From NCBI GenBank assembly GCA_002900995.3, contig CM035305.1, forward strand, positions 2,216,467 to 2,280,466: 64,000 nt of DNA. Direction: 5' to 3'. This DNA comes from Ganoderma boninense (Eukaryota > Basidiomycota > Agaricomycetes > Polyporales > Polyporaceae). Under the pieces are notes generated by a model. It was not told the origin of the DNA and searched no databases. It saw only the letters and a program-made list of their open reading frames with translations. Below, piece by piece: positions 39,891 to 55,048 of this stretch. How positions within the stretch are numbered: position 1 is the stretch's first letter; every line of letters starts with the position of its first letter. The translations under genes and the position numbers were made by a program.

Positions 39891-40122
39891 GGTCGTCAGC
39901 GAGTACTGTATCGTCGTCGAAAGAGGGTTCCAGTTTGAGATGTCTATGAGCGTCTATCTGGAGCATCGCCTCACAAGGAACCGCCGAAAGTGGCAGGCTG
40001 AACGATGCCGAACCCCCCCGTGACCCACAGCTCTAATTCGGCCGGCACGTCCCCGATTAAGCGCTCTATGCAAACAGATCGAAATGCGGCCAAATAAGAC
40101 CACACGAATTCACCGGGTTCCT
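39891..40122. other. Flank between beta-fg and the left end of the RecQ-DUF6589 element
   Basis: About 230 bases; presumably the beta-fg promoter. No gene. It carries AAATAAGA at 40092-40099; AATAAGA recurs three bases outside the right terminal repeat, but the left copy is 23 bases away from its repeat, so I do not call it a target duplication. Confidence 0.4.
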
Positions 40123-40154
40123 TTATTACGGTTTTCAAAATGATACGGAATCGC
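40123..40154 (+). repeat. Left 32-bp terminal inverted repeat
   Basis: Identical, base for base, to the reverse complement of 55017-55048. Contains TACGG twice. It lies outside both genes. Confidence 0.85.
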
Positions 40155-40169
40155 TAGGCTCGTCCCCAT

Positions 40170-40219
40170 CCTGTTCGGTGATGGGATTTCAAACTCCGTT
40201 GTGAGGGTTACCGAACAGG
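40170..40219. repeat. Left-end hairpin
   Basis: CCTGTTCGGT (40170-40179) pairs perfectly with ACCGAACAGG (40210-40219) around a 30-base loop. It abuts the subterminal block beginning at 40220. Confidence 0.8.
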
Positions 40220-40271
40220 CTGGGCAAACTCGGCGCCCCTTTGGCGGGGCCGCCCGTGGGAAATTTGACTT
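40220..40271. repeat. Left subterminal inverted block
   Basis: Its reverse complement matches 54530-54580 with about five mismatches and one single-base gap in 52 positions (shared words TTTCCCACGG, CCCCGCCAAA, CGAGTTTGCCCAG after reversal). Confidence 0.8.
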
Positions 40272-40348
40272 AGAAAAATCATGCATCCACCGTTTGGTCG
40301 CGACCATGCCGTGGCTCGCTGGGCCACCGAATCCCCTCAGAATACATT

Positions 40349-43034
40349 TCAGACGTCTTCGACATCATCTACATCAGCTTCTATCAAGTCCATGTCCAAT
40401 GCAACATCACCCAGGGTTTCTAATGAGAAAGGTACCTGCTCCGAAGACTCAATGTCCTCAAATGCGCCCCAGTAGTCTTCCTCCTCGTCTTCTGGCACGT
40501 CGTCAGGAGGTACACCACTACCCCCCCCCTTGCTCAAGCGTGGCGGGTATGGGAGCCGTGGATATGACAGCAGTTACGGAAGGTGGTGTCAGCGCGCTCG
40601 AAGTCAGAGGCTGCGCGAGGGATGGGCCGGATGGCATATCGACTGGGGCAGGTTCCGGGGTGGCGTCTCGCTGAGTTGTATAATGCAGGAGCTGCGAGAG
40701 GCGTCGAAACACAACGGTGCTGCAACCGTTTGAGCTGTGTATTGAAATCTGCAAGGGGTGCGGTAAGCTGGTTCCACCCGAGGGCAACTGCGTACGGTAC
40801 AGCTCCGCCGCTGAAGCCTGGCTTGTCGGATTCGGATGGGATGACACGACCGGGCACCTGTACATATACCTGGTGTTCAGCTAGCGAGTCTCGCAGGACT
40901 TGTAGATCCTTCTCAAGACTTGGACTTGTGTGCTTAGAACCCTGGTGGGCGCCGAGGTCGCAATTAATGTGGGTTGCAAGATGGTGGAGGATGTCGATGC
41001 ACGGGGAGACCATCGCGAGCCATTCCCAGGATGCATTGCTGCTGTGAGCTTTGTATATGGTCTACATATGACTCATCAGATCGTAACACATTACAGGACA
41101 TAACTGACGCACCTTGATCCAGAAGTTCAGATGCTCTTGCATCAAGTCGACTTCGACCCAAGCATCGGGATGCCCCGTAGGATTGACAAGCCAGTTTTTC
41201 AGGATGATCTTGCTGGAGAGAGGTCAGCGATAGAAACCAGGAGTGAAAGAATGCACAACGTATCACACCGTAAAGGTTCCGGCCACACATGGGTCAGGTT
41301 GTGAATTAAGTGCAACATTTCATGAGCGTACTTCGTGCGACCGTTGCCGCGGAATGTGAGCGCCCACAGTCTCAGGACCAAGATGACTCTACCAGAGTCT
41401 CCGGTCTTGACTGCATCCGTGAATTCACGTAAAACCAGAGCATCGCGGAGGAACAATATGGCGTTTTCGAAGACAGCATCGCCGGAGGTGAAAGGTGCAG
41501 GAGGTGGTTGAGCGGCTGTATCGGCGCCCGTTCGCTCGGTTGCTGTCTCGGCGGCCATGCGAGCGTTCACATCTGCCTGGCGAGTTCGCATCTCTGCTTC
41601 TCGCTGTCGTTGTGCTTTATGTGCTACCTCTGGGTTTGCGAACTGGTCGACTATCTTGCTTGCATGATCTTTCAGCTGTGCAAAGTCGACTACTCTGCCG
41701 TATTCATCAAGACTAGCGCAGTTGCTGACAAGCTCAAGGCAATGGAGGACTCGGGCATACACCGAGACGAAGATGAGGTCGCGACAGGTTCGGAAGGGTA
41801 GAAGAGAGGATAGGACAATGGGTTTACGATCCAGGAGGGTGTTATGGAAGGCGAGTGAGGCTGGATTTGTTGTGGAGGAGGACCCGAAGTGATGCTCGAG
41901 CAGACCGTGAGTTGCTGTCATCTTGTAGTGGAAGAGCCCTGGTACGCAGATAGCCCAGAGGAAAGATTGTGCAAATGAGGTGTGTCCAGCGCGGTTGGCA
42001 ATGATTGAATGGATGCGTGACACGGACAGCTGGTCGCCTGCGATCAGCTTGACCAGCTTCGTGAACTCCGGGGATGCAATGTCCTGATAGAGCTCTGCAA
42101 AGATCTCCTTCAGGACGTCTGCGTTCCCGGTGATGCTGGATTCGTCGATGTTCATGGCTGGTAAAGGGAAGATCTCGGTCTTGTGGATGTTGATCTTGTC
42201 CGAGGTGGTGGGGGTAGTGTTCATGACGTCCTCCCGAAAGCGGGCGAAGCCCTCGCCTCCGTATGTGATGATGATGCGCAGAACTGTGTGGATGAGCCTC
42301 TCGCGAAGCTGTGATGTCTCCTGCGGAGTGAGTAGGATGTCCTCTGGACAGAGCGGGGGGGCTGAGGAGAGCGACTTGAGCAGGTCTGCAGTGCGCATGT
42401 CTTCCTCGTCAGCCTCAAACAGCTTGAATGCGGTCGCGCAGGTGCCATTTTGCTGAGAGTCCTTGCGACCTAAGATTTGTTCTGCGATTCGAAAGAGCAT
42501 GTTGATGTTGTTGTAGACATATCCTATTGGAAATAGTTTCGCCATTTTGCGGGTGTTTTGTCGACAGGCATGGGAGAGCTGTTTGATCAACCCGTACGCG
42601 GCGAGGATGAGTCGAAGTTTGCCTGGTTTAGAGGGAGGATTTGGCTGCGAGGTGGTGCCGGATTCCCCATCTTGTTGGGTTGTGGGTGTAGCATGTGTGT
42701 TGTCTTTCGCAGCAGAGCTGACTCGAGCCTCGGGGATGATCGCTGACATTGACGTGGGTGGCGGTACAGAGCGCGATGGAGCAGGGGGGAGGGAGTCTGA
42801 CCCGGATGGCATCGTCTCGGGGGTTGAGGACGGTGGGGCCTGGCGCGGGCCGGCCTCTGCGTGCGTAGGGTCAGGGAGAGGGAGATTAGAGGACTGGACA
42901 GGGGCTGAGGATAGATGGTGAGTCCTTGGGTTTTGGGGCAGCGATGATGGGCGTACCTTGAGCAGAGAGTGTGGTGGTTGCCGCTGAGGATGGGCCTGGG
43001 GGCGGCTCGTCAGGATCAGCAGCTGTGGTGCTCC
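40349..43034 (-). pseudogene. DUF6589 gene, 3' segment (after the foldback insertion)
   Basis: Holds most of the DUF6589 domain. From the 5' side there is a short Ser/Thr/Pro/Ala-rich exon, an intron, then a long exon to about 41199. That exon carries KLFPIGYVYNNINMLFRIAE, NGTCATAFKLF, the block IFPLPAMNIDESSITGNADV, GDQLSVSRIHSIIANRAG, LWAICVPGLFHYKMTATHG, and GDSGRVILVLRLWALTFRG followed by KYAHEMLHLIHNL. Later exons give NWLVNPTG, DLMQEHLNFWIK, WEWLAMVSPCIDILHHLATHIN and an acidic tail ending in DDVEDV at 40349. DUF6589 proteins occur in many copies in Agaricomycetes and have no proven function. The segment itself is open, so inactivation appears recent. The strand and order require joining with the pieces at 45349-45977 and 50467-51029. 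Confidence 0.8.
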
Positions 43035-43775
43035 TAATGCATTATTAACCGGCTAATGCCTGGGGACTTAATACAACATTAACCGTCAGTATTCCTATTG
43101 CATTACAATGCCCCGGGACAATGCCCGGAACTTCCTAAAAGGGATGGGGCCTCCCGGAGGCACCGGTTCAAGCCCCACTGTGCGCATTTTTTGCTTATCT
43201 TGTTAGATAAGAGAGATCTAAGAGTCCGGAAGGGCGCTTTTTTGCTTATCTCTTAGATAAGAGATATCTTGCATCTCCCATCAATCAGGGCCTCTCCCAT
43301 CAATGAGGGCTTCTTCCGGCTGCCTCTACCAACCTCCTGGCTGTGCACCCCCAATTAGGCAGGTCCCTCCTGTACTGGCAGGCAGGGGACCTTCTGGGGG
43401 CTGCCCTGGGGCCAATACTGACCTGTTTACCTTCATTATAGGCTCATTTGGTTCGCATTTTTAATGGGCTTCAAATGTGTATAGCTGGACTGTCCCATAT
43501 GTATGCACTCCTGTGGTATAGCCCATTTACTGTTCGCTCTAGGGGGTAGTAAATGGGCTGTATCTCGGCCGTTTCTTGGACGATCTGTACGCCTAAGGGC
43601 TCGTTAGAACCGCATAATTACCGCGGTTCTAACGAGCCCTCATGCGTACAAAACGGTCCACCCGTTGCCGAGTTATAGCTACACCTTCCTCCTACCCAGG
43701 AGGGCAGGTAGCCATATCTTGGGATTGGGTGGTCCGATTCACTTCATCTTTGTTGCTGCTTGTAGATACACTCTG
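43035..43775 (+). repeat. Left arm of the foldback element
   Basis: 741 bases, exact reverse complement of 44608-45348 as read by eye along its whole length. It includes a word like a Pol III B box (GGTTCAAGCCC at 43165-43175) followed by a T run; no tRNA fold could be made around it. Confidence 0.9.
43596..43640. repeat. 18-bp stem hairpin inside the left arm
   Basis: 43596-43613 pairs perfectly with 43623-43640 around a 9-base A/T-rich loop. The copy in the right arm is at 44743-44787. Confidence 0.85.
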
Positions 43776-44607
43776 AAATACACTGGGATAGCGTTTAGAA
43801 TAGTAATCTAGCCATTGCAAAAATGTTGATACTCAAAACACTAGCTGTAGGATGACTTTGCAGTGTTTGATAGCTAGAATTGGCAAATATTGGGCGAATT
43901 GCATGCTCTCTTTTGCAACATGTTAGTATTGCATACCTCTAGCCATGTACAAAATACCACACCCATACATCAAGTGGACAATTTACAACATATATATTGG
44001 TTTTTTTCACTGTGGTCATGATGTATATTTTTCCTTACCACTGCCCAGAGTACTAATAGTGCGATCAAAAGCACCTAAACAAGAGCTATCCAACACAAAA
44101 ACAATCATGGGAAACAGACCAGAAATGGGGAAGATATGGGTCATGCATTGCCAGGGCTAGTTGGTGGTATACACAGCCTACAGTAAGACACCTCCGGAAA
44201 GTGTCTTAATCCAGCACCCAAGTGTCTTAAACTGATTGTTCCACCCATATCTTCTTCATCTCTGGGCCGATTCCTATGATTTTGGTACCGTTAGAAAGCC
44301 CTAATTCATCGCTTTCCAACACCTTATTACATGTTGCACAGTAAGGCAGTAATAGGGTATAGAAATGCGAACTATTGTTCAAACTATAAGTGGAATAGCA
44401 ATGGTGTATGATGTCCAATGGCCATGGAATTTTGTGAGAGCATTTAAGCACCATATACACATATAATACAAAGGCCAGCGCCCAGATGTGCCTTCCAGGA
44501 AAGACCATATTAAATACATTGCAATATAGCTGAGTCGACTAGTAATTGGCTTGTGGACCATTCAACAAACAATGCAGCAGTGGTATAAACACTATCCCAG
44601 TGTCTGC

Positions 44608-45348
44608 CAGAGTGTATCTACAAGCAGCAACAAAGATGAAGTGAATCGGACCACCCAATCCCAAGATATGGCTACCTGCCCTCCTGGGTAGGAGGAAGGT
44701 GTAGCTATAACTCGGCAACGGGTGGACCGTTTTGTACGCATGAGGGCTCGTTAGAACCGCGGTAATTATGCGGTTCTAACGAGCCCTTAGGCGTACAGAT
44801 CGTCCAAGAAACGGCCGAGATACAGCCCATTTACTACCCCCTAGAGCGAACAGTAAATGGGCTATACCACAGGAGTGCATACATATGGGACAGTCCAGCT
44901 ATACACATTTGAAGCCCATTAAAAATGCGAACCAAATGAGCCTATAATGAAGGTAAACAGGTCAGTATTGGCCCCAGGGCAGCCCCCAGAAGGTCCCCTG
45001 CCTGCCAGTACAGGAGGGACCTGCCTAATTGGGGGTGCACAGCCAGGAGGTTGGTAGAGGCAGCCGGAAGAAGCCCTCATTGATGGGAGAGGCCCTGATT
45101 GATGGGAGATGCAAGATATCTCTTATCTAAGAGATAAGCAAAAAAGCGCCCTTCCGGACTCTTAGATCTCTCTTATCTAACAAGATAAGCAAAAAATGCG
45201 CACAGTGGGGCTTGAACCGGTGCCTCCGGGAGGCCCCATCCCTTTTAGGAAGTTCCGGGCATTGTCCCGGGGCATTGTAATGCAATAGGAATACTGACGG
45301 TTAATGTTGTATTAAGTCCCCAGGCATTAGCCGGTTAATAATGCATTA
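44608..45348 (-). repeat. Right arm of the foldback element
   Basis: Exact inverted copy of 43035-43775. Confidence 0.9.
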
Positions 45349-45977
45349 CAAACACCACAGCAGGTGTCAGGATTATCGAAGCTGTCCCAGTACCAGTCGT
45401 CTTGAACGTCTGATGAGCTAACTCCGATCTTCTTTGCAGGGTTGGGCTCCGTGACTGTGGAATCCGGAAGCTGGGAGGACTGTTGGATTAGGTGAGCGGT
45501 GCTTTTTGACGGTCCTGCCTCGGGTAGTTCAACATTGTCGAAGATTGTATTGCTATCACGATGTCTTCCAGCAATACTTGTGTAGCTACTTGTGATCCCC
45601 AGGTGCGAAAGAACCGCGATCACTTGGCGCGATGCACCCGAGGCGTAAAGGTACAATGCGAGGACACTCTTCATATAGTTATTGTTTTGGCTGCGTGTTC
45701 TGAGTGCGATGAGGGCTTGCATTGTTACGCACTAGCCCATGCACTGCAGAGGTGCCCAGTTAGTCAGGGTAAGTCCATGGATATGATGTATGGGCTCACT
45801 ATTTCCTTTTTCCGTTTAGAGTTCTCCTCAAGCTCTCGATCCTGGCGGGTTGTTGTGCTGTAGGCCTCGAATAGATCCATAGCGACTGGACAGTGCTCGC
45901 GAAGCTGACTGTGTAGAGTGCGTAGGCTGAACTCGAGCGCAAATGTTTGATCAATACTCATGGATTGACTTTGCAGG
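45349..45977 (-). pseudogene. DUF6589 gene, middle segment
   Basis: Lies between the hAT and the foldback insertions. From the 5' side it gives FLQSQSMSIDQTFALEFSLR, LHSQLREHCPVAMDLFEAYS and TTTRQD, then after an intron MQALIALRTRSQNNNYMKSV and ALYLYASGASRQVIAVLSHL, then GITSSYTSIAGR. These are the usual N-terminal motifs of DUF6589 proteins: a Thr-rich TTTRQ stretch, the RSQ-NNY-KS-LYLYA block, and a Gly-Ile/Val-x-x-Ser-Tyr-x-Ser motif. It runs into the foldback element, which supplies a stop codon about a dozen bases after the junction. Confidence 0.75.
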
Positions 45978-46450
45978 AATTTTGTTAGCGAATGGCAAGG
46001 GTATGGCAAACCCGCAAGGGTTTACGCGGGTGTCACACACGGGTCGGGTGGAGGGTCACACTGCGCCAACCTGCCCCAAACCCGTGACCCGTGTAACCGG
46101 GTTTCACTACCCGCAGGCGCTCGAGTCTTCGAAATCTCGCCTCCGCAAGGAACCACGGTGGAGGAGCTATTCGGACCAATAGTGCTCGAGAGTCCTTGTG
46201 TTTTGCCTCATGATGTTCTAGACTCTGTATTAGATATACTACCAAATCCGCACTTCTGCCATTTTGAGTGCTACTGTACAGTTATTCATGCTTGAAAACT
46301 CCGATGGAGTACTGATTAGGATAAGAGAGGAGGGACTAGCAAGCCACCGAGAGCCAGACAACAAACAAGGACAGACAAACAAGCCATATTCATCCTCAGT
46401 CTAACTCGAAAACAACACAGATCTCAACATCATTCAGCTTGACTTGGTCC

Positions 46451-49400
46451 ATGGCCTCGCGAACACAACGTAAGCGCGCTGGGACGCAGACGGCGACTCG
46501 TTCGCCACCGCCCAAGAAGCCGAAAACCGGTATGTTCACGTTATGGTGGAGGGCGCCCGGGATATAGCGCTAACGGAAAACGGGAAGCTTCAAAGGCAAA
46601 GGAGCGCGGAGGTGGGAAGGGGAAGAAGTTGAAGAAGTCGAAGAAGGCGAAGAAGGGGAAAGGGTCAGCGCTGAGCGAGGCATCCGATGACGAAGGCAAC
46701 ACGTCCGACGAGATCGAGATCATCGGCACATCTTCGAAGTCTGCTGGGAGGCCTTCGCGCAAACCGACAGTGGAGGATGTGGAAGACGAGGGAGACGACG
46801 CCAGTGGCCAGAGCGCGACTGAGAGTGCCTCAGACCCTGAGAAAGACGCTCGGATACAGCTTGGTGCGTTTGTACATTCTATGTCTTGCGAATGGAAAGG
46901 TTATTGTGTCTGGTAGAGAAAATGCGTGCCAAGTGGACATCGACGATCTACGCCTTCTACGAGGAGGCGGAAATCCGCTACAAGGACGGACGGCTCCAGC
47001 ACTCGTTTAAGTGCTCCAACCGGGGCTGCAAGACGCGCGTGAATCGATTTTTAGATACCAAAGATGCAGCGTCGACCTCCAATCTTCGGCGGCACGCAAT
47101 GGACTGTTGGGGCCCGGATGTGATGAAGGCGGCCGCAGAGGTCTTGAACTGGGGAGAAGCGCGCGAGAAGATCGTGAAGTCCGTACTGATGACAGGCACG
47201 ATCACAGCCCACTTCGAGCGGAAGGCAGGCCAGGTGACGTACAGCAACCACCCTCTTTCGCGCAAAGAGACCCGGTTGGAAATTGTGAAGGGGGTGTGCG
47301 AGAGCATGCGGCCATTCAACATCGTGCGGGATCCAGGTTTTCTGGTATTGATGAAAACGGGGCGCCCCAATTTCTACGTCCCATCGCCATCCACTGTCGC
47401 CCGAGACGTCAAGGAGATCTTCGCGCGCACGCGCAGTAGGGTCGCCAAGATGCTGCAGGTGAGTGCGAACTTCGGAGTGAGCATGTTCCTCGCCGCGCGC
47501 AAGGGCTAATAGGTCTCACCTCTAGGAATATGATGGGGATCTCAACTACGCCACAGACTGCTGGACCTCTCCTAACCACCGCGCGTTCATCGCGTTTACT
47601 GTGCACTTCGAATACGAGGGCAAGCCCATTGTTCTCCTTCTTGATTTCGTCGAGGTCGCGACATCCCATACAGGCGCCGAGCTCGCGAACGCGTTCACTG
47701 AGATGCTCGAGGAGTTCAGAATCGAACGGAAGGTGCGCGCACTTCCAGACGGGGTGGGTCTTGTGGATAGGAACGTACTCATGGTGTCGCACGTTCAGAT
47801 AAACGGCGTCATGATCGACAATGCGTCGAACAACCAGACCATGATCGAGGCGATGGGCGAGGATGACCGTCTCCCCCACTTTGATGGGCATCGCGCTCGG
47901 ATCCGCTGTTTTCTTCATATCCTTAGCCTAGTCGTCAAGAGCCTCGTTAAGCAGTTCGACTCGCGGGCAGACAGAGTGAAGGCGGCGAAGGACAAGGACG
48001 AGCAGGCGCTCTTGGAGCTCGAGACGGACCTCGCAGTGTTCGAAAATCTCCCGCGCCTTCCAGTGATAGGTGAGGATGTGAGTCCTCAGGGAGACGACGA
48101 TCCGGATGACGAGGTTGACGCGATGGAGGAGATGGATGAGGAGGAACGGGCTGAATTTGAGAAGAACGTGCGCCCAGTGAAGCTTGTACTAGCGAAGGTA
48201 GGTGGTTAGCTTTCGTGCTGACTCGGAGGACACCCATGGACTCACCACAATGCACGAATAGATCCAAATGTTCGCCTTCAAAATCGTCAACTCCACGACG
48301 AAGCTTCTCCCGGCGTGGCGGGCCCTGTGTGTGTCTGAAAAGTGCCCCCGAGACGCTCCTGCCGCGGAGACGTTAGAACACGTTTGGAAATTCGACTTTC
48401 GACATGTTAGCAGGGGCACTGACTCACTGGGCTGTTTATCGACAAGATGACGGAGGGACAAGACGTATGGGTTGCGGGGCATTACGAGCTTTAGTCCAGC
48501 TGACTGGCGCATTGCCCGGCACCTGCACAAGGTTCTTGAGGTTCGTCCTCCGCCCGAACCTTCTTCAACCAAGGTTCAAACTCTAATAAAACCTTTCCTT
48601 CTCGCGTCCCGTGAACCAACCAGCGTACCCCCCCGGGCCACGCATGCTGCCTCTGCCTGGGTACCCCGGGCGTCCTGCCCCTATCCCGCTGTCCCTACCC
48701 CCACTCTCCTCCTCTTCTGCACGGACGCGTTCTGCTCCTCGGCCACGGACGCGCTTGCCTCCCTCCCCCTCAGCCACGGACGCGCCGCTCACCTGCTCTC
48801 ACTCACGGACACGCTCTCCCCATCCTCGCATACGCGTTCTCCTCATCCGCATGGACGTGATCTCCTCGTCCTCACGAACGCGCCACTCTCCTGTCCTCGC
48901 CCACGGACGCGCCGCTCTCCTGCTCTCACCCATGGACACGCTCTTTCCATCCTCACGGACGCGCTCTCCCCATCCTCACGGACGCGCTCTCCCCGTCCTC
49001 ACGGGTGTGCTATCATCCGGACCACTCCAGCATTTCAAGCACTCCACACTCGCCTTCTCCCAGGCAACGCCACACCTGGCCAAGGTCATCCCGGCCATGG
49101 ACAAGTGCGACAAATTTCTCACGGACTGCAGCTGCAACACGAAGCTTGACCCGGCCATTCGCATCGCCTGTGGCATCGTGAAGGGTACGCTGAACCGATA
49201 CTATTCCTTGACTGATGCCTCAAAGGCATACCGTATCGCAATGGGTGAGTATTCACCTCCCAGTGTCATCTCACACTATTCGTCGCACAGAATACCTACA
49301 CTGATTACTCGCCGCCCTTCCCCCACAGTAATGCATCCTCGCTACAAGATGGCGTACTTCAATCAACTCAAATGGGAGGATGACTGGAAGAAGGTCGCCC

Positions 49401-50219
49401 TCGACCTTGTCCAAGAAGAGTGGCGCAGCAAGTACGCGGACCGGACTTTGGGCGATCTTGAGTCAGAGACGAACCCACGAGCCTCAACGCCTCCTCGCAC
49501 CCCAACGCAAGCCAGCGAGTCTGAAGAAGGAGATCCTGAGACCGACGATGACGGTGACGACAACGATGACGTCCACGACGAGGGGCAAGATCGAGATCGA
49601 CGACGAGGACGATAGTGCGTCAGCCATAGATGACGAGGTATGTGTGCGCCGCAACTTGGACTTGCATCCAAGCCCGTCTTCGCGATGTCCTGACACTTTA
49701 GCCTTTCTGTAGTTCAGCGCGGACATCTACGATGTCTTTGATGACACCGCCCCCCCCGCTCTTGCTGAGCTTGGTGACGAGCTGGACCGTTACCTCAGGA
49801 CCCCGATCGAGCATGCCCCGAACGCCATCAAGTGGTGGGTTGATCGTCGCGCAATGTATCCGAACCTGTCGCGCATGGCTCTCGACTATCTAATGATTCC
49901 AGGTGAGCACGGACTTCACGACTTCTCCGATGTGCTCACAGCTTCTGATGCTCAATCGCTTTGCCCCGGCAGCGACGTCCGTTGACGTCGAGCGTGTCTT
50001 CAGCTGTGGACGCCTCCTTCTCTCGCATATACGCAACCGCCTCAGCGCTCAGTCCACTCGGGCCATCCTCTGCCTCGGAAGTTGGGCAGATGCCGGCTTT
50101 GTCAAGGCTGCCGACTCATGCAAGGTCGCAAACCTCGAGGAGATCGTTGATGAAGATTCAGAGGCTTCTGATTATGAAATGGAGGAAGGCTGGGATGCCA
50201 TCGATACTAGCAAACTGTA
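46451..50219 (+). pseudogene. hAT-family transposase, probably damaged
   Basis: Exon 1 starts at 46451 (MASRTQRKRAG, basic). Exon 2 is Lys-rich, then acidic. The zinc-finger region (FKCSNRGC...SNLRRHAMDC) is BED-like. The catalytic RNase-H-like core follows: EYDGDLNYATDCWTSPNHRA, FIAFTVHFEYEG, DNASNNQTMIEAM and RCFLHILSLVVKSLV. The hAT dimerisation domain near the end reads NAIKWWVDRRAMYPNLSRMA, TSVDVERVFSCGRLLLSH and RNRLSAQSTRA, with the stop at 50219. The region expected to read DVSTRWNST after about 48340 is not recognisable; frames change between 48340 and 48600, and a minisatellite occupies 48640-49015. Downstream motifs (LAKVIPAMDKCDKFL, LNRYYSLTDASKAYRIAM, MHPRYKMAYF) resume cleanly. 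I infer a once-autonomous copy that has lost the central part. Confidence 0.8.
48640..49015. repeat. G/C-rich minisatellite inside the hAT transposase
   Basis: About a dozen degenerate copies of a roughly 23-24 base unit resembling CACGGACGCGCTCTCCCCAT. The last three copies (48945-49010) are nearly identical. Confidence 0.75.
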
Positions 50220-50466
50220 GTTATCTGCGAGATGTGTACCTACGCATGTCTGTATGCCTCATGTATGCTTCCGTGAACGTATATGTCTATTATTGGGTAT
50301 CTCCACCCGTGTACGCACCCGAACCCGCGACACCCGCACCCGTACCCTCTACCCGGCGCTTCTACCCGCCACCCGCTGTCACCCACCACCCGTGGGTGCG
50401 GGTATTCTACGGGTTCGATCATGGGCTGAGTGCCACAACCCGAGGGTAGACCTGTGCCATTCGCTA

Positions 50467-51029
50467 AATTTTGTACCAGTCGCCTCATCACCTTCGGACC
50501 TGAGAACCTTCTTCACGTACTCGAGAGCCCAGTTGCGCACAGATTGTCGACCCTTCGCACTGTTCCCCGAAGATGTCCAGGCGTTGAGGATTCGCTTCAC
50601 TCTACTGTCATTGCTGAACAGTCCTTCGAATCGGGCTGCACCTTTCCAGTTTGTAGGATCGGATACGTACTCCAGCAAGCCACCAAAACTGCATCCGTCT
50701 TCTCGGCCTAGTGTGGTGAGTATTTTATTGTAAATGTTGTGCTCACGTCTCTGCCTAGACTGCTTTTCCAATCGTTTCTTCTCTTCCCGAGCTGACTTCT
50801 GTTTGCGACGAGAATCGGCGGCGGTGCGAATAGGAGATGACATCTCGAAGTCTGTAGAGAGCTCGAAACTGCCCAGTTCATCATGGATAACGCGCCTTGT
50901 GCTGGTACCGAGTGTAGGTGTTGTAGGACTTGGTGGGTCGCTCGGGGGTAGATCAGGGGGGTGCGCCAGCGAGGGCGTCCCCTCTGGGGTGATTGTGTAC
51001 AAGTCATTGAAAGCGGGTTGGACAGGCAT
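50467..51029 (-). pseudogene. DUF6589 gene, 5' segment
   Basis: Start at 51029 (MPVQPAFNDLYTITPEG), the first ATG in the frame; the frame is open further upstream without an ATG. It gives a Pro-rich lead, a basic coiled stretch (DSRRKQKSAREEKKRLEKQS), then the DUF6589 N-terminal motifs GLLEYVSDPTNWKG, RVKRILNAWTSSGNS and RQSVRNWALEYVKKVLRSEG. The hAT insertion begins in the codons for GTKF; when the hAT and one 8-bp copy are skipped, the reading frame continues directly into the middle segment. Divergent from the RecQ-like gene. Confidence 0.8.
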
Positions 51030-51237
51030 ATGTGGAGGGGACGGAGGACCAGGCGTAGCAGACAGTGAGTTGATTTCACTTGTGAATTGTCTATGGAGCT
51101 GTGTAGAACTGAACGGCTGTGATGAAGGTCGGCGTATGCAGTAGAGCAGCAGTGTATGTCCACTCAAGCGCACAAAATGTATGGCCACTCTCTGTTTCGA
51201 TCACTTCCGCTCAGCTTCACCTCTTCGAATTGCGCTC
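51030..51237. promoter_or_regulatory. Divergent promoter of the RecQ-DUF6589 pair
   Basis: About 208 bases between the two start codons. No particular motif was recognised. Another in-frame ATG for the helicase at 51181 would narrow it further. Confidence 0.45.
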
Positions 51238-54200
51238 ATGCCCCCTAAGCATCCCTCTCCAACCTCGAAGCCTCGTTGGGCACAGAGGACAGCACCTACC
51301 TCTAGACTGCCACCCACTACCAAACTTTCGGACTCGGACATGGAATGGCTGAAAGGCGAGATGCGAACCAAGTTCAGATGGAAGTCGGACCCTCGACCCT
51401 TCCAGCTCGATGGCATCCGTGCCCAACTCAAAGGGGTGGACATTATAATTCAGGCTCCAACCGGAGCTGGTAAGACCGCCATTGCCACGGGGCCGCATCT
51501 CTGGCCTGCGTCGGCGGGAAAGACTACCCTCATGGTCTGTCCATTGTTAGCCTTAGAGGAAGAGATGGTATGAACACCGGGAGTATCCTGAGATCTCAGG
51601 TCGAACACTCACGATACAACGGCAGGAACATACATTCGCAGATGAATTCGGGCTAAAAGCCAAGGCGGTGAATAGCGTTGGAGGAAAGTTAACACAGGAT
51701 GTCGTAAAGGTACGTACTTCATCATGCTTCTAGAAGAGTGCCGCCGCAAACACTCTCGTGCCCACCTGTGCCCAGGAGCTACTTGCAGGGACCTACCAAA
51801 TTGTTCTCATCTCTCCCGAAATGCTTCAGTCTCCTGCTTTTATCAACCGTGTTTTGCGGAAACCCGCGTTTTCTCGGCGAGTTCTATCCCTAATAATTGA
51901 CGAAGCGCACTGCATCTCTCATTGGGGAGCGGACTTCCGCAAGAAGTACTCGACGCTCGGCTCAATCCGAGCTTACCTTCCTCGCAGAACATCAGTCGTG
52001 GCAAAGACTGCAACTCTTACGACGCACGTGCGATGCGACCTGCACCGAGTCCTGCATTTCTTGAAAGGTGAAAGCCGGTTCACGAACATGGGGAACGACC
52101 GGCCAAATGTTACTATGGTTGTCCGAGCCATGGAACATCCTCAACATACATATGCAGATCTCGACTTTCTGATCCCTCCCTCTGTATCCCATCCTTCTGA
52201 CATCCCAAAATCCTATGTGTATGTTGAGGACATCAAGATAGGTAACGAAATCATTGACCATCTCAATGATGTCCTCGCAATGCGGGCGAGTACCAACCTT
52301 TCCACTGATGGTCTCATACGACCATACAACGCGACACTTCCTACCGATTACCGCTCAGATGCTATGGCTGCCTTCCGAGCCATTCCACCTCCTGGCACAG
52401 CATCCACAACGTCAGCTAGTCAGCAGTGTATACATATACTGGTCTGTACAGATGCAGCAGGCATGGTAAGTACCCGTAAAAGCCTTTGCTAACTGTTATT
52501 TACTAAACACTGTAATCTAGGGCTGTAACGTCAGGGATGTCGCTCGTGTGGTGCAGTGGAAGTTGCCCAAGACACTATCCAACTTCGTGCAGCGAGCTGG
52601 TTACGCTGCCCGGGCACCTGAACTTACCGGCATTGCTATCCTACTGGTTGAACGCTCTGCGTATTCTCTAGACCTCCGTCCCAGTCAATCGCTCACCACA
52701 CCTACTGGCGGACCCAAAACGACTACCCAGAATAAGAAGAAGAAAACTCGCACTGCTGCAGGTGCTCTCCCAAAAGGGTACGCTCAGTGTCATGGTGTAG
52801 ATCGGGGCAGCTCCTCTGGATCTCATGACACTATCCCTGACATACCGCCCGACGAAGTTCCACATCTGAAGCCTGACGCAGACGATGAGGGTCTCCAGGT
52901 TCTAGTGCAAGCGAACACATGTCGGCGTCTCTTCTGTTCGAAGATATTTGACAACCCATTTACGCCTAGTACGTGCCTCACTCTTCAATGCTTGATATGC
53001 TCAACGGTGTCACCACAAGCTAAACCTTCACCGCTTTTTGTATTCAGTAGAACCTGCACCCGGAGTGCCATGCTGCGATATCTGCGACCCTGCCGTGTTC
53101 AATATGACCCGACCTGGCACACCCCTGAGCGCCGACACTTCGAAAGCGAAGGTTCGAGCCAAAGGTTTACCAGATTATAGCTCCTTTGACAGGCTCGATG
53201 AGTGGCGGGAGAGAGTGTTTCACCGCGACTTGGCTACCTCTCCGCTGGATCCTACAGCCGTGCTAAACGATGAGATGATCATGCACCTCGTCTCCGTTGG
53301 CCCGCTCACGGCCCATCAAGCATCTTCAATCCTCCAAGATTTGTGGATTTGGTGGAAGAAGTATGGGCAGGAGCTCACCGCATTCATCTGTAGCCTCAAA
53401 ATTGTCTACCTTCCCATCAAGAAGCCTCCGAAAGCCCCTGCGGCTCCCAGGCCGGCGGCCGTCCAGCCTTCATGTACGTCGACCACAGGACCCGTAGGAC
53501 CAGTCCCTATCGCGGTGTTGCAGACCACTCTCGTGTCTGATATGTTAACGACTATGCCGGCCTCATCCAAACGTGCTCGAGAACGTGAGGATACGGCTTT
53601 ACGCCCAGGTGTCTCTTCTGAGCCTAACCCCGCTATGCTCGCGCCGAGTGGCACCTTCACCCCTAAGCGTGCACAACTATACCCTGCCGCACTCCCCCCT
53701 GCAACATCACCATATCTCGCAGAGCACACTCTCATGGCACAGCGGGCCTCTCTTGCCAACTACACAAGCCACAGCAGTGCAGGTCACGGCAGCCACTACG
53801 TCGCACAGATTCCACCAGCGGTCTCTCCCCCAGTCTATCACCAAGCCACGCTGCTGCTGCTGCCGCCACCGCATTCAGCTTATAGCACGACGCCACATCA
53901 CACAACACAGCAATCTTTAACTCAACCCCATGAAGTGCCCGCTGCCATGTTCTCCCCGCGAGGCTACTACTCCGAGTCCGAGTCCTGGCATATGGCGCCT
54001 GGCCGTCTACCACCAGCGCTGCACCCATCTCAGGAGTTCCTGCTGGCTTCAAGTCCTGGAATTTATTCCAGGCCTGTACATCAACAAGCCACTTCTGCGG
54101 CGCCCGGGCCAAGCGCAAGCGGGCACCCAGTCCACGATATCTACTCGTCCACCCACTCCGCCGCTACCTCCGTTGCCCATCATACTACTACCCAGTGGGC

Positions 54201-54423
54201 CACCTCCCAAGTTCCTGGACAAATGCACACTGACGTGTTTCCTGGAAACACGTCATGGGAATCATTGCTGACAGCTCCTGCCGCACAGGCAGCGCAGACT
54301 AATTTTGAAGCTGCATTGAATACTCACCAGCTGTACATAGCGCCGCCGGCCGAGTATTATTGCGATGTTGAAGAGGAAGCGAACGAGTCTTGGAATACAT
54401 ACATTCCGGACCATGAGCACTGA
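51238..54423 (+). CDS. RecQ-like DEAD/DEAH helicase of the mobile element
   Basis: Five exons: 51238-51567, 51626-51709, 51776-52465, 52521-52968 and 53048-54423, in phase with GT-AG junctions. Superfamily 2 motifs in order: Walker A APTGAGKTAIA (motif I); VLISPEMLQ; DEAHCISHWG (motif II, the RecQ form); a weak motif III (KTATLTTHV); ILVCTDAAGMG (motif V); and QRAGYAARAP (motif VI). In motif VI the usual first arginine of QRxGRxxR is tyrosine, which could weaken ATP hydrolysis. A zinc-binding stretch like RecQ-Zn follows (CRRLFC, then CCDICD). The C-terminal 300 residues are a His/Pro/Ser/Thr-rich tail with no known domain. RecQ proteins unwind DNA 3' to 5'. Here the helicase is paired with DUF6589, suggesting a role in the element's own DNA transactions. 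Confidence 0.82.
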
Positions 54424-54529
54424 TGCTGTACAATATGTAGATAGCAATGCAATGAAGGAAACATGAAGAATACTAATGCAGCAGACGAATGCGCGCGGCG
54501 CCAGCCCAGGGAGAACTGCTCGATTTCAC

Positions 54530-54580
54530 CAAGTCCATTTTCCCACGGCCGCCCCGCCAAAAGGGCGGCGAGTTTGCCCA
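54530..54580. repeat. Right subterminal inverted block
   Basis: Inverted match of 40220-40271, about 88% identical by eye. Confidence 0.8.
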
Positions 54581-54638
54581 GTCGGTATGGCAGGTCCTCC
54601 CCCTTTCACACTCCGCTGATGGGACCTGCCACCGACTG
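54578..54638. repeat. Right-end hairpin
   Basis: 54578-54596 pairs with 54622-54638: 17 base pairs with one 2-base bulge (AT) and a 25-base loop. It occupies the same place relative to the subterminal block as the left hairpin, with a different stem sequence. Confidence 0.8.
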
Positions 54639-55016
54639 GCTTGCGAGTCTACAGAATCGCGTTCTTGAGCAACACCAGTGTCTATAGGGCGCTCTTAGAG
54701 ACGCCACTCGATCACGGGACCCCGACGTCAGACGGTGTGATAGTGTTACTGTGACGTGACCCAAACACTGGAGCTTCGCCTCCTAGAGGTGCAGCAATTT
54801 CGACAAAACTCTGCTTAGATATTGATGTAAGAGTTGTAATTCAGTCCGCATAGGCACTATTCGCTCCGTATTGTGGAGAGGATCATGGCTCCGAGGAGCC
54901 CGCTGCTTGATGGTGACAGAGTGACTCTCCGGTTCCCCGGCTTGCTTGAGTCACTGTGTGCCCGGCACAGCATGCTAGTAGCAAAGCGCCCGTCAAGCGT
55001 AGGCTCGCACGAAAAC

Positions 55017-55048
55017 GCGATTCCGTATCATTTTGAAAACCGTAATAA
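55017..55048 (-). repeat. Right 32-bp terminal inverted repeat
   Basis: Identical to the reverse complement of 40123-40154. Confidence 0.85.

Follow-up and report, generated by a model that had tools for sequence, protein, structure and literature searches.

The 64,000-nucleotide stretch of Ganoderma boninense DNA analysed here (the window) contains a RecQ-like helicase gene and, in divergent orientation, a gene of the Pfam family DUF6589, together with two insertions. An earlier note on this DNA had correctly described the gene pair, the insertions and the perfect 32-bp inverted repeats that flank them (40123–40154 and 55017–55048), and had taken the repeats for the ends of a transposon of undescribed make-up. 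The inner inverted block that it had also noticed exists (40215–40264 and 54537–54586), but is 82% complementary without gaps and 85% when a single gap is allowed (52 of 61 columns), rather than ≈ 88% over 52 bp. With good confidence, we assign 40155–54651 to a decayed DNA transposon encoding a DDE transposase (DUF6589) and a RecQ-like helicase, most likely of the AcademH lineage, reportedly described by Kojima in 2020, of the Academ superfamily. The instinct of the earlier note was right and its boundaries were wrong. The features are listed in Table 1, in which TIR denotes a terminal inverted repeat, TSD a target-site duplication and MITE a miniature inverted-repeat transposable element.

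Table 1. Features of the RecQ/DUF6589 locus (window coordinates; C followed by a number denotes other places in the genome)
Feature	Position	Strand	Basis
Left-hand 32 bp of the interrupted ≈ 420-bp MITE	40123..40154	+	100% match to both ends of C1:816378-816797
Left TSD copy, 9 bp, CGGAATCGC	40146..40154	+	equals unoccupied MITE
RecQ/DUF6589 transposon, 14,497 bp	40155..54651	.	shared homology limits; ends TAGGCTCG...CGAGTCTA
Left TIR with subterminal palindrome	40155..40284	+	82% identity to C38, 94% to C8 and C1 deletion derivatives
DUF6589 gene (predicted DDE transposase)	40382..50768	-	tblastn with relative P0002; Pfam PF20231, E 3.6e-110
Non-autonomous long-inverted-repeat insertion in DUF6589 gene	43017..45365	.	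781-bp arms; 8-bp TSD GTCAGGAT by eye
hAT insertion within DUF6589 exon	45986..50466	+	12-bp TIR TAGCGAATGGCA, 8-bp TSD AATTTTGT, Dimer_Tnp_hAT
RecQ-like SF2 helicase gene	51238..54423	+	tblastn with C38 helicase; Pfam DEAD in two exons
Right TIR with subterminal palindrome	54520..54651	-	95-96% identity to C8 and C1 derivatives, 71% to C38
Right TSD copy, CAGAATCGC, one change	54652..54660	+	flank comparison
Right part of interrupted MITE, closing in second 32-bp repeat	54652..55048	-	97% over 400 bp to C1:816378-816776

To locate the ends of the element, we searched the species' own assembly (55.57 Mb, 74 contigs). The 32-bp repeat occurred, with two mismatches at most, at 14 sites forming seven inverted pairs; a reversed control pattern gave none. 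The pairs on C1 and C8 span ≈ 420 bp and four others ≈ 1.4 kb, which leaves the window pair as the only one long enough to hold both genes. The earlier note had allowed that repeats found without the gene pair would speak against its reading, and the pairs elsewhere are indeed too short to enclose RecQ and DUF6589 genes. Window 54650–55048 was 97% identical to the MITE at C1:816378-816797, and 40123–40154 matched one end of C8:710401-710819 perfectly and the other at 31 of 32 positions. Because the other repeat pairs are short and 54650–55048 matches the C1 MITE, the window is seen to hold one MITE, split in two by the RecQ/DUF6589 element; by these comparisons, the 32-bp repeats are the TIRs of a separate MITE family and not the ends of the element. 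Homology to the C38, C8 and C1 copies begins at 40155 and ends at 54651, and the MITE is unbroken across the insertion point except for 9 duplicated bp. The 9-bp flanks of these true ends, CGGAATCGC and CAGAATCGC, are identical at 8 of 9 positions. Since the left flank equals the unoccupied MITE and the right one differs from it by one base, the aligned sequences place the insertion within the MITE, with a 9-bp duplication of which one base changed later. The lack of a TSD conceded by the earlier note is real for the 32-bp repeats but does not extend to the true ends. The reading in which the 32-bp repeats delimit a new class of transposon has in its favour that they are perfect and flank everything, but it is extremely improbable: six of the seven pairs, at 0.4–1.4 kb, are too short for the two genes, and both the homology limits and the continuity of the MITE refute it.

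Relatives of both genes are numerous in the assembly. At least 16 DUF6589 loci were grouped by hand from 33 exon matches, and the C38 helicase exon, used as query, gave 18 matches. Fifteen DUF6589 loci have a helicase match within ≈ 11 kb (2.8–4.8 kb in 14; the greater distance in the window is due to its two insertions), whereas random placement of the loci gave 0.12 pairs on average and never more than three in 20,000 trials. No partner was found for three of the helicase matches or for a fragmentary DUF6589 locus at C2:4111k. The helicase lay on the strand opposite DUF6589 in 15 of 15 pairs, three of them divergent (window, C38 and C3) and 12 convergent.

By the same criterion, the outcome for the true ends is mixed, though on balance favourable: they surround a helicase match and DUF6589 in eight elements and also bound short deletion derivatives lacking the pair, as is expected of a transposon. 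The window element measures ≈ 7.65 kb once both insertions are subtracted; full-length relatives at C38:6529-13931 (7403 bp) and on C3 (7596 bp) have perfect 9-bp TSDs, TAAGAGTCT and GTTTGTCCC, respectively. So do two deletion derivatives of ≈ 660 bp (C8:2670316-2670974 and C1:962258-962918); a short copy at C10:976k has a TSD of only 6/9. The convergent elements C9, C4 and C2:5267k carry TIRs of ≈ 194–229 bp (72–81%) beginning CAGGCTCC and perfect 9-bp TSDs, readable as 10 bp in C9 and C2:5267k if a terminal C is shared. C10:547691-555110 has identical 558-bp TIRs and the duplication GTGAATTCG, and the duplication at C2:207k is 8 bp, or 9 with a shared C. The 9-bp TSD is thus perfect in eight elements (C38, C3, C9, C4, C2:5267k, C10:552k and the two derivatives), and the TIRs range from ≈ 130 bp and patchy (window) to the 558 bp of C10. 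An AGGCTC end core is common to the divergent (TAG) and the convergent lineage, except that one end of each TAG element reads AGACTC. No TSD was resolved at the paired loci C7a, C7b (without a separate scan), C13, C1 and C25. The C7/C13 subgroup gave no TIR either; C25 showed inverted repeats (71%) without an exact TSD of 9 bp, and C1 a TAGTCTCG-like left end. The ends of the C24 relative could not be located, and the comparison of ends and TSDs covered the two C5 loci apart from their helicase side. Taken together, the common ends, the 9-bp TSDs in relatives and deletion derivatives, and the insertion into the MITE demonstrate, at the level of sequence, that both genes are carried by one transposon. 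The suggestion that common ends explain the joint multiplication of the two genes is borne out for the true ends.

C7a and C7b lie head to tail (C7:639.5k-652.6k; loci L044, L043 and L051) and are 99.4% identical over ≈ 6.1 kb, which suggests a recent tandem duplication. Two CAGGCTCC ends in inverted orientation, ≈ 1.1 kb apart at C1:2917925-2919051, likely mark a non-autonomous member of the convergent lineage.

DUF6589 is very probably an RNase H-fold DDE transposase and the DNA-cutting enzyme of the element, a role that the earlier note had considered possible. This assignment is based on fold matches of two protein models and on a D-D-E triad conserved in two alignments (predicted catalytic residues D272, D431 and E702 in P0002 numbering). 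As in hAT (Hermes), the best structural match for each model, an all-helical stretch precedes the last Glu helix of the RNase H core. In the window, the extent of the gene was taken as the span matched by P0002, in exon pieces at 50466–50768, 45797–45985, 45564–45695, 41268–42602, 40630–41223 and 40382–40474 (minus strand). Only PF20231 passed the cut-off in a Pfam scan of four full-length DUF6589 proteins; no other family appeared at E up to 5 except sub-threshold NdhN and PB1 in two of the four. Against PDB sequences, the DUF6589 profile gave no match and a single protein just a P450 at E 0.01. No fold in a viral library matched at E ≤ 0.001, and none of 44 pattern matches in viral contigs was confirmed. 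Scoring of 7991 candidates yielded at least 312 relatives at E ≤ 0.001; among the 120 matches listed, those bearing species names were Agaricomycetes, judged from the names. UniRef labels P0132, a DUF6589 protein of G. boninense, 'ATP-dependent RNA helicase CshA', an apparent misnaming that may stem from a neighbouring helicase gene.

The helicase exons were matched at 51238–51567, 51629–52465 and 52521–52682, and the C-terminal frame was assigned by eye. The C38 helicase protein matched recQ_fam at E 2.5e-37, below the curated cut-off. Motifs I, II, III and VI were found in nine of ten stretches searched, the tenth (C10) being the gene start only. Identity to the C38 helicase over the matched exon was 64% for the window, 60% for C3 and 27–37% for the convergent copies.

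The window copy itself is very probably a decayed fossil that cannot move itself, because its transposase gene is split by two insertions, the first catalytic Asp is replaced by Asn, and helicase motif VI is altered (QRAGYAAR versus QRAGRAAR in C38 and C3). The arms of the 43017–45365 insertion are 99% complementary and enclose 788 bp; stretches ≈ 71% similar to them are present in C2:207k (L040).

How should these elements be classified? Helitrons are not known to have a TSD or a TIR; both are present here, and TIRs are a feature of Academ. hAT elements produce 8-bp TSDs, as does the hAT insertion within the window, and are not known to carry a helicase. Despite the resemblance to Hermes, the TSDs of the RecQ/DUF6589 elements are 9 bp, and the hAT C-terminal dimerisation domain (Dimer_Tnp_hAT) was not found in the four full-length DUF6589 proteins. 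Kolobok elements duplicate TTAA, whereas the 9-bp TSDs here lack TTAA and are mutually unrelated. KolobokH, known only from fungi, likewise has a gene for a RecQ helicase (PMC9587614), and so shares partner and host with the present elements; its helicase lies downstream of the transposase domain, as against on the opposite strand in all 15 pairs here, and with the TSDs this makes a KolobokH origin very unlikely. KDZ, Zisupton and Plavaka are likewise fungal DNA transposons able to carry an accessory enzyme gene (TET/JBP), but the TSDs of Zisupton are 8 bp (PMC12730594).

AcademH fits better. Fungal Academ copies with DEAD and recQ_fam domains are reported and are often annotated as host genes (PMC6416283), and AcademH has a helicase and TSDs of 9 or 10 bp (PMC10045372, PMC10799480), compared with 3–4 bp in AcademX (PMC10045372). 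AcademH is low-copy in Basidiomycota, Ascomycota and Mucoromycota (PMC10799480), putative non-autonomous Academ elements occur in Marasmius oreades (PMC8290104), and Academ is counted among the DDD/E superfamilies (PMC9587614). The make-up was therefore not undescribed. The elements here share the 9-bp TSD, which is not that of AcademX, a helicase (DEAD/Helicase_C) inside the element (eight elements), low copy number in a Basidiomycete, and a DDD/E transposase as predicted from fold and triad; no difference from the published AcademH features emerged. AcademH is most likely the best filing, made by published description rather than by comparison of Academ transposase sequences, ends or gene order. 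This basis leaves some room for the reading that the DUF6589/RecQ elements form a separate DDE superfamily, whose likeness to AcademH is limited to the helicase and the length of the TSD; the near absence of other Pfam matches, the missing PDB sequence match and the absence of the word DUF6589 from the literature searched point the same way. We consider it unlikely, since TSD length, helicase and Basidiomycete host together match what has been published for AcademH, and fungal Academs with recQ_fam domains are already on record. We are equally doubtful that DUF6589 represents an Agaricomycetes DDE lineage distinct from Academ, with an obligate RecQ-like partner and two ancient orders (divergent with TAGRCTCG ends and convergent with CAGGCTCC ends). 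If it did, neither the helicase partnership nor the 9-bp stagger would have a single origin.

For the AcademH-like element, we propose that the DUF6589 transposase would bind the inverted ends, cut, and join across a 9-bp stagger. The helicase might help by melting or processing the ends, or by repairing donor or target. The idea of general hairpin ends processed by the helicase was rejected. By DNA folding, subterminal palindromes were strong at TAG-group left ends, with z-scores of −7.5 (C38), −6.4 (C3) and −2.9 (window). Right ends scored −4.1 to −4.7 in the window (−4.1) and the two derivatives, but those of C38 (−0.2) and C3 (−1.2) were weak and CAG-group ends gave no hairpin signal (−1.7 to 1.2).

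Pfam lists DUF6589 without a function; a transposase assignment would name its catalytic residues and remove many mobile genes, with their RecQ-like partners, from host-gene lists. The term DUF6589 was not found in the literature searched (5.39 million papers), which did not extend to subscription journals or Repbase, and a link of the name to a transposase appears unreported there. The present elements also offer defined ends and targets with which to study the part played by a helicase in cut-and-paste transposition.

Four 1.4-kb elements share the MITE TIR (C5:4551166-4552591, C5:4132756-4134176, C4:1357638-1359057 and C2:3757901-3759320) and may be longer relatives of the MITE. Just left of the MITE fragment, window 40057–40120 may be another dispersed repeat; by eye, the same sequence lies beside the C7a copy.
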